Below are positions 2,920 through 6,152 of a DNA stretch of 36,650 nucleotides, piece by piece. The notes beneath the pieces were generated by a model, which was given only the letters and a program-made list of their open reading frames with translations, had not been told where the DNA came from and did no database searches. The stretch covers positions 1 to 36,650 of the forward strand of contig CALDTK010000031.1 in NCBI GenBank assembly GCA_937924035.1, written 5' to 3'. The translations under genes and the position numbers were made by a program. The stretch is from an uncultured Saprospiraceae bacterium (GTDB lineage: Bacteria > Bacteroidota > Bacteroidia > Chitinophagales > Saprospiraceae). Each line of letters starts with the position of its first letter. Positions within the stretch are counted from its first letter, which is position 1.

Positions 2920-4398
2920 CTAGTCCTTAATGAAAGTAAACTGACCATACCTCCCCCTACCTTCTAACGGGTAAAATATAATTGAATAGAATCCATTCTT
3001 TAAACAAGCAACCTCTATCCCGCTTGAATGATCATAAAGGTTTTTTGACATGAGCCGCCCAGATGTATCATAGATTTCATAATTATAACCAACTGGAATA
3101 AGCTCACCGTAATCTACGTAAATCACATCTTTTGCAGGATTGGGGAATACGCTTAGAGCCAAAGGGACCTCTTCGGCTATGCTTTGAACACTAGTAGATT
3201 GGTCATAGCGATCTATGTAATAAAGAATAGTCTTAATTGTAATACTATTATCTGGATTGAAAAAGATCTGCTTAGTCGTCAAGACATAAGTAGAATCAGA
3301 GTCCGTACTTGCAATCCCCTCCAATCTTCCAGATCTTCCCATATCCAATCGATATGTACGTATTTGATTTAGAAGAGTATCAAATTCAGTGAAAATAATA
3401 GAGTCATTTGGCACCGATATGGAATCCCAAGTAACACCAATAACAAAAGTCATATCCGAGTTTACATGAAAACAATGACTAGTTGCTTGCTCAATAATTT
3501 CTCCCTCACTAAAATTAATCGCATCTTCGACTAAAGCTCTCGTAATATCTATTTCTTCCAATTTTGAATTTAATTTCTGAACGAATATTGCATGATACTG
3601 ATTCTCGAAATTAGTTCCATTAATATATCCTACAACTCCAAATCTATAAATATAACCATCGAGCACAAAGACAGTCTCGCCGAGCCCAGCACTGAGTAAG
3701 AAGTCTGGATCAAACTCCTGAAAAAGTGGCTCTGCTACTTCAATTTTCGCTAAAGTACTGTCGAGCGTGTAAATATCTTTTGACAGGAATTCAAATCCTA
3801 CAAACAAACTATCCACCTGTCCCACTAATAGTGTATTCTGCAACTCTCTTGACGACACAGCTAGAGCCCGAACACCGTCAAAATACAAATACATGGAATC
3901 ACTCAAATTGCTCAAAGCTTGCTCTCGAACTTTTGGCTCATAGAGACATGTACTTCCTGAACAGGAATATTGCACCGATGGGACTCCATTAGGAGCAAAA
4001 GGTAAAGAAAAAGTATCTGGAGTACATGTAAAACCAATTGAGTTAAAAAGACAGACACGACCACTCATTTCGACACTATCCGACTTCTCCCATGATATAG
4101 TTGAAAACTCTTCTCCGATATACCTTGTCCCAGAAAAGTTAATTGCATTATCGAATAAAGTATCGAATACAATATTTCCACTTTTCAAATCTATAACTTT
4201 CGAAATTAATTCACCACTTGTATCAATTCCTAACACATATAATTCACCTCCATCAATGACAGTAAACAAGTCGAATTCCAATACTAATTGATCAGATGTA
4301 TTAGACACCTGCGAACAAATAGTATAGGGAAAAAACATGGCTAGGGTGAAAACACACCCTAGCCATATTTTCAGAATAGTTTTAAAAAAGGTCTTCAT
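2920..4398 (-). CDS. Secreted protein with T9SS (Por secretion) C-terminal sorting domain, function unknown
   Basis: Listed ORF is 2920..4605, but internal Met at 4398 gives a good signal peptide (MKTFFKTILKIWLGCVFTLAMFFPYTICSQ); C-term ALSVFPNPAKDVIYVDYG...YEIYDTSGRLMSKN...LKNGFYSIIF. Confidence 0.75.
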   Translation of the reverse strand: MKTFFKTILKIWLGCVFTLAMFFPYTICSQVSNTSDQLVLEFDLFTVIDGGELYVLGIDTSGELISKVIDLKSGNIVFDTLFDNAINFSGTRYIGEEFSTISWEKSDSVEMSGRVCLFNSIGFTCTPDTFSLPFAPNGVPSVQYSCSGSTCLYEPKVREQALSNLSDSMYLYFDGVRALAVSSRELQNTLLVGQVDSLFVGFEFLSKDIYTLDSTLAKIEVAEPLFQEFDPDFLLSAGLGETVFVLDGYIYRFGVVGYINGTNFENQYHAIFVQKLNSKLEEIDITRALVEDAINFSEGEIIEQATSHCFHVNSDMTFVIGVTWDSISVPNDSIIFTEFDTLLNQIRTYRLDMGRSGRLEGIASTDSDSTYVLTTKQIFFNPDNSITIKTILYYIDRYDQSTSVQSIAEEVPLALSVFPNPAKDVIYVDYGELIPVGYNYEIYDTSGRLMSKNLYDHSSGIEVACLKNGFYSIIFYPLEGRGRYGQFTFIKD

Positions 4399-4399
4399 A

Positions 4400-5497
4400 C
4401 TAGTTACAGCCTGGTTGATTTTTCCCTCCGATAAATCCAAAATTCCCATAAAACAAATTATATCTGAACCAGTTGTCTGGATTTGGGTCAGAAGTATTGC
4501 TAAGTGGCTGAAGCCATGTATGAGTAAGAGCTTTAATGTCGGCATCCACTGGCAAAAGGCTAGAATGATAAAAACCTTCTTCACCAAGAAAATCAATTTT
4601 TTCACAGGAAAAACACAACTCGTCTGTTTCTGGATCTAGATGATAAGAGTATGCGCCATCGTCAACAAAAGGGCCTGGTCTTCCAGTTGGAAATTGATCA
4701 TTTGTTTTCGACCATAACAAAGAGGGATTAGTACTTAGGTAACGATTTACGAGGGCCTGTCTAATTCCGTACCTATAGTATGTGCTTGCAGAAGGACATC
4801 TTGAACGAATAGCAGCATCTGCTCGATTGTTAATGTCTTGAGAAACGAAATAGTATGCTGGATCTCTAAAACAATTAGGACTAGACCCACCAGTCCAGCC
4901 TAAACCCCATGTAAAAGTTCGGGGTTGAGTACAATCTATAGATGAGTTGGAAGTTATTGTGTATGTCGCATTCACGTAAAAAGCTTCATTTTCTTCAAAA
5001 GGGCCGGACAAATCAACTATTCCAAGTTCGTAGCCATCGCCTTCTTGGAGTGATATTGCCTCGTTCACTTCTGAAAGAACTGCACTATAAAGTTCTCTTG
5101 AATTTTCGATTTTCCAACTCTCAATTGACTCTATAGTTAAGTCGAAAGTCTTATTCTTACCCAAAATTACAGTAGATGATTCCGGCTTTGAAGGTTGAGA
5201 GAAGCTTCGACAAGGTAAACTTCTCTACCAGCAGATAGAAGCGTATTTTCAGAATCCAAGCCTAGACTAGCTGAATTGTAAGCCTCATTGGACAAAACTA
5301 TTTGCTCATAAAATAGCTCTTCGGACCATTCCCCAGGAGCTACATACCCAGCAACAGATTCGCTCCTATTTTCTAAACCTACTAAGGTTTGAGATTCATG
5401 TGGTTGAACTTCATCAATCGAGGTTGAACTACATCCAACTACTAATGAAATACCGACTAATGCTATTAAAAGTCGTGTGTGTGTGTGTATAAAACAT
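4400..5497 (-). pseudogene. Disrupted or phase-variable lipoprotein gene (signal peptide and N-terminal part in one frame, remainder in another)
   Basis: ATG at 5497..5495, then (AC)7; the frame after the tract encodes RLLIALVGISLVVGCSSTSIDEVQPHESQTLVGLENRSESVAGYVAPGEWSEELFYEQIVLSNEAYNSASLGLDSENTLLSAGREVYLVEASLNLQSRNHLL* (stop 5169..5167). The rest (GKNKTFDLTIESIESW...NQPGCN) continues in the other frame as ORF 4400..5164, whose listed start is TTG. Confidence 0.65.
5475..5488. repeat. Dinucleotide microsatellite (GT)7 on +, (AC)7 on the coding strand
   Basis: agtc-gtgtgtgtgtgtgt-ataaaacatctc. Confidence 0.97.
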
Positions 5498-5833: not shown

Positions 5834-6152
5834 ATCGTCAACGCTGGGTTTGGCTTAACCCGGACTGTGCATTATAATTGCTACTATAAGCCGGAAGGGT
5901 CTGCAAACACAGACGCACGCGAGAAAAATCTGTCTTCACCCTAGCGGTGCTAGGTCTGCGGAAAATTTTCCTCGCGAGCACCTGTGTTTATTGGCTTAAC
6001 AAGCTTTCGCTACGCATCCCAATGCACGATCCAGGCTTAAAGAAGTCCTGCGAAGCGTGGATCCTCGTACTTAGCACTGGACTAGACCGCTCGCGCCTAT
6101 CTATTTGTCTATAACTGTATGCACGTTAGAGATTTGCGACTGGAAATCGATG
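5834..6152 (+). repeat. Right copy of the flanking direct repeat, interrupted by a palindromic insertion
   Basis: atcgtcaacgctgggtttggcttaa [insert] aggcttaaagaagtcctgcgaagcgtggatcctcgtacttagcactggactagaccgctcgcgcct. Confidence 0.75.
5859..6033. repeat. Long imperfect palindromic (MITE-like or structured) element with nested hairpins
   Basis: Nested inverted arms: ccggactgtgcatt/aatgcacgatccagg; taagcc (5887)/ggctta (5993); aaacacag (5905)/ctgtgttt (5982); gcgag (5919)/ctcgc (5971); central cctagc-ggt-gctagg (5940-5954). Confidence 0.65.

Follow-up and report, generated by a model that had tools for sequence, protein, structure and literature searches.

The question raised by this locus is whether the number of units in a short AC repeat, placed between a start codon and a lipoprotein signal peptide, switches a surface-protein gene on and off by changing its reading frame, and whether the copy at hand is a gene in its off state. 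The window, that is, the whole stretch of DNA analysed here (36,650 nucleotides), carries this locus on its minus strand. The features on which the following analysis depends are listed below (coordinates of the window).

5495-5497, minus strand: ATG start codon, in a frame different from that of the lipoprotein signal at (AC)7; product MFYTHTHTTFNSISRYFISSWM*
5475-5488, minus strand: (AC)7 dinucleotide tract
5431-5474, minus strand: core of the lipoprotein signal (LLIALVGISLVVGC, with lipobox cysteine); its frame has no normal start codon
5170-5430, minus strand: initial portion of the lipoprotein body, in the frame that follows the tract, assigned by codon usage; ends at the TAA at 5169-5167
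5167-5221, minus strand: zone of the second coding-frame change, placed by stop codons and codon usage
4400-5166, minus strand: second part of the gene in another frame, assigned by codon usage; 254 codons and a stop, without an ATG start
2920-4398, minus strand: intact downstream gene; its secreted product ends in a type IX sorting tail

Read on the minus strand from 5497, the sequence is ATG TTT TAT followed by (AC)7. Translation from this ATG runs out of frame and ends after 22 codons. The frame that follows the tract reads RLLIALVGISLVVGC-SSTSIDE..., in which a hydrophobic signal with a lipobox cysteine was recognized by inspection; this frame has a stop codon upstream (5517-5515), and ATG, GTG and TTG are absent between that stop and the lipobox cysteine. 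The number of tandem-repeat units thus sets the frame between the start codon and the body of the gene. In these respects the original prediction, which had described the ATG with its 22-residue product, the (AC)7 tract, the lipoprotein signal in the other frame and the lack of a start codon in that frame, was borne out. The tract is longer than expected by chance: ACACACACAC occurs three times, all inside the (AC)7 tract, against 0.08 expected, and the whole 4.1-Mb draft assembly contains three AC tracts of at least seven units, the one in the window included.

The body of the gene is not continuous. The lipoprotein frame terminates at the TAA at 5169-5167, and the remainder lies in a different frame, open from 5221 to 4403 with its stop at 4402-4400 (about 254 to 266 codons); at (AC)7 the ATG is in this same frame. 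Codon-usage scores, trained on the other genes of the window, gave +17.4 bits to frame 0 over 5430-5201 and +50.4 bits to frame 2 over 5166-4403. A single gene running through 4400-5497 in the post-tract frame, as originally drawn, therefore does not exist in this sequence. Because the second frame change lies between 5221 and 5167, one additional AC unit, which had been proposed to restore the gene as (AC)8, does not restore it; the frame breaks again and the product is a fragment of about 110 amino acids, so that a change of unit number alone does not yield the full-length protein. For this reason the copy in the window is probably a pseudogene with its frame broken twice. Two observations had been named in advance as counting against phase variation, and one of these, another inactivating change in the gene, is present in the form of the second break. 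A standard slippery heptamer for ribosomal frameshifting was not seen at this break by inspection.

To place the locus among its relatives, 61 genomes were scanned on either strand for AC tracts of at least seven units with the context left free, and the flanking sequences were then read out. A tract was taken to show the layout when an ATG preceded it by no more than 60 nt and a hydrophobic core resembling a signal peptide followed, with a long open frame and no intervening start codon. Hydrophobicity and inspection were the criteria for signal peptides, and the in-frame or out-of-frame status given below is that of the deposited consensus. The layout was found in seven genes besides that of the window: two paralogues in genome G074, two genes in G010, and one each in G024, G016 and G008. 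Their open reading frames span 371 to 1192 amino acids, that of G024 being still open at the contig end, and both registers are represented (six genes out of frame, one in frame with its ATG). The two G074 paralogues lie about 5 kb apart, have the ATG at a common position and, over 1.8 kb, are about 70% identical at the DNA level; the copy with (AC)8 is in frame and the copy with (AC)10 is out of frame. Of 30,000 positions drawn at random from the fetched loci, 0.71% passed the same layout test, and with the gene of the window excluded, the enrichment (7 of 36 tract-strand trials) corresponds to a P value of about 7e-9, calculated for independent trials with each tract counted on both strands. 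Five of the seven proteins carry a type IX sorting tail, four of them above the Pfam cut-off and the fifth just below it (26.6 versus 27 bits). Further features are a subtilase domain in the G016 protein, a beta-helix region in the out-of-frame G074 copy and an RHS repeat in the G024 protein; one of the G010 genes encodes a lipoprotein without a Pfam match.

Since the layout recurs far above chance, is followed by long open reading frames and is found in paralogues both in frame and out of frame, slippage phase variation is a credible reading of these sequences for the class of genes as a whole. In this class of surface-protein genes, the reading frame would be set by the dinucleotide tract that separates start codon and signal peptide, and repeat units gained or lost by replication slippage, a process that would be maintained by selection, would turn synthesis of the exported protein on and off. 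The copy in the window combines an off register with a second, downstream frame break, presumably a genuine mutation and not an error of assembly, and would thus be a decayed member that slippage alone could not restore. On balance, the evidence favours this placement of the window locus as a decayed, off-register member of a slippage-switched class. The original proposal of phase variation accordingly keeps its footing in the relatives, where the layout occurs in both registers, and is weakened in the gene for which it was made, with its second break.

The main competitor is a plain pseudogene, in which the AC tract belonged only to the 5' leader, the true start downstream of it was lost, the ATG at 5497 is incidental, and the tract length never controlled the gene. 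The second frame break is what gene decay would leave, and the other tracts of the same genome are in agreement with such an origin. The second (AC)7 (1501-1514 of locus L007, G000:C200) lies in a 5' leader outside the coding sequence, about 15 nt upstream of the ATG of another lipoprotein, and the tract in the window could therefore also have been a leader; the (AC)11 (1497-1518 of L004, G000:C154) is intergenic. Seven units is, moreover, short for a switch. Against this stands the recurrence in relatives of ATG, tract and signal in the same order, with no start codon separating the tract from the signal core and with long open reading frames behind them, at the P value given above. We regard the plain pseudogene as rather unlikely.

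The (AC)11 tract has an orthologue in the sister species, where it counts 13 units (1501-1526 of L096, G001:C110); in both genomes it lies 150-167 nt upstream of the same gene.

An error of assembly, or a mixture of strains, could also have produced one or both of the frame changes in the consensus of a gene that is in reality intact. The draft genome is fragmented (364 contigs, 85.6% complete), errors are frequent in short repeats, where strains may differ as well; the second break, however, lies outside any long repeat, and internal stops are absent from 17 other genes of the window, which cover 25 kb. These 17 genes make a general assembly problem unlikely; a local one is possible, and as a whole we consider such an artefact quite improbable. 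It is very improbable that the locus holds two genes with no second lesion, the first coding for a short phase-variable lipoprotein that ends at 5167, the second beginning at the TTG at 5164: the stop at 5169-5167 does adjoin this TTG, as in coupled genes, but the TTG is the only start available to the second part, which lacks its own signal peptide despite having the look of an exported protein (several cysteines), and its open frame reaches upstream of the TTG into the first ORF, where codon usage does not favour the lipoprotein frame.

No convincing homologue of either half of the protein was found in 100 relatives, 399 genomes of the order, the genome collection and plasmids, and no orthologue of the gene was found in the 399 genomes or the genome collection; comparison with relatives, which had been suggested as a check, was thus informative for the layout, through the seven genes of the 61-genome scan, and not for the gene itself. 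The second part matched no Pfam or NCBIfam family. In a search of one genome, a DUF4249 protein (L040) aligned weakly to it (E value, 1.5e-6). Membership in DUF4249 (PF14054) was rejected: there was no Pfam match, the family search missed the window protein in its own genome, and the probability from profile comparison was 0.2%. The likeness to these lipoproteins therefore consists of the weak alignment to the second part, and the difference is that the family model does not match the window protein. Among solved structures nothing was significant (best, 2ivf_B; E value, 0.32), and the structure predicted for the second part, with a mean pLDDT of 34.9, was left out of account.

The downstream gene at 2920-4398 has its ATG directly past the stop of the lipoprotein gene, and the two probably share one operon; its secreted product is an orphan, with no relative in 399 genomes. 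In the sister genome G001 the region is missing, with contigs ending at der and inside rfbC (contig gap). Rfam and tRNA scans of the window gave no matches. Between the lipoprotein gene and rfbC, a dispersed, largely palindromic element of about 180 nt occupies 5849-6041; it recurs once more in its own genome (C195, 73%), matches the sister genome G001 at four places, is absent from Rfam, folds better than shuffled sequences (z = -2.8), and is MITE- or REP-like. A second, shorter repeat in the same intergenic stretch (approximately 6036-6110) matches 2480-2556 at 81%.

A wider scan of the genome collection was performed for ATGAAA followed by 0 to 16 bases and an AC tract of at least nine units. 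It gave 114 stretches, of which 80 were listed; several matches came from one genome and some from named genomes, and these 80 loci are to be read as a survey, not as a rate. Among the matches listed, 25 loci, 12 of them from Bacteroidota, had the layout and lacked an inner start; 6 are in frame and 19 out of frame, close to the one third in frame to be expected under free slippage. In the control on the GT strand, 3 of 95 fitted the layout. A metagenome-assembled genome of Bacteroidia (JAEUTH) contributed seven loci with a common start, all out of frame and some cut by the locus ends. Six of the seven read ATGAAAAAATC and then plain (AC)n, with n = 10, 10, 11, 13, 14 and 17; in the seventh (L145) the tract is interrupted by a G before (AC)12.

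Three further sets of loci were met in the wider scan. Many pilin-like N-termini (GITLIALIITVILLLILAGVAI) in Clostridia Lapin-022 bin51 (CANRGE; L146, L175, L176, L178, L182, L191, L203 and others) are preceded by ATGAAA and AC tracts of differing length, mostly out of frame, which points to repeats that switch or break a pilin repertoire. In proteobacterium RUG791 (OMQP), a set of exported paralogues begins MKAAEI-(AC)n-GCLCKIILSI, with tracts of 21, 9, 16 and 14 units in L160, L171, L189 and L202, respectively; one is in frame and three are out. A SusD-family lipoprotein of Tannerellaceae (L194, 2635-4632) has (AC)15 between ATGAAA and its signal, in frame. Among isolates, Mesonia hippocampi DSM 29568 (L151) has a lipoprotein gene with (AC)9.

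For the group at large, we lean, with some reserve, towards the view that Saprospirales and other Bacteroidota carry scattered, unreported contingency genes in which AC or TG tracts, placed in codons ahead of the signal peptide, would switch type IX-secreted proteins and lipoproteins, the gene in the window being a decayed member. If so, the genomes of environmental relatives hide on/off surface repertoires of type IX cargo and lipoproteins, which annotation scores as pseudogenes; as an illustration of the class the gene in the window is weak, because its frame is broken twice. No report of phase variation in Saprospiraceae and no paper on contingency loci with type IX secretion was found in a search that left most subscription papers outside its range and is weak evidence of absence.

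Among known systems, the opa genes of Neisseria have a pentamer repeat in the leader-coding region; they are alike in that a repeat within the signal-sequence codons sets the frame and different in the pentamer unit and in the proteins encoded. A dinucleotide repeat is found in sabA of Helicobacter pylori, with CT repeats in its 5' coding region and 6, 7 or 8 units among clones of one strain (PMC2715451). Seven dinucleotide units can therefore vary, and slippage was rightly cited at the outset as a mechanism known in other bacteria. In both cases a dinucleotide tract lies near the start of a surface-protein gene and its unit number sets the frame; the repeat is CT in sabA versus AC or TG here, and the present genes belong to a different phylum, have lipoproteins and type IX-secreted cargo as products, and would switch by analogy. 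In Bacteroidota, phase variation is known above all from gut Bacteroides, where it works by DNA inversion, and the Bacteroides passages found in a recent review concern recombinase-driven inversion, not short repeats (PMC11868660). The present class would share with that system the phylum and the phase variation of surface features, and would differ from it in using slippage of a short repeat where Bacteroides uses a recombinase.
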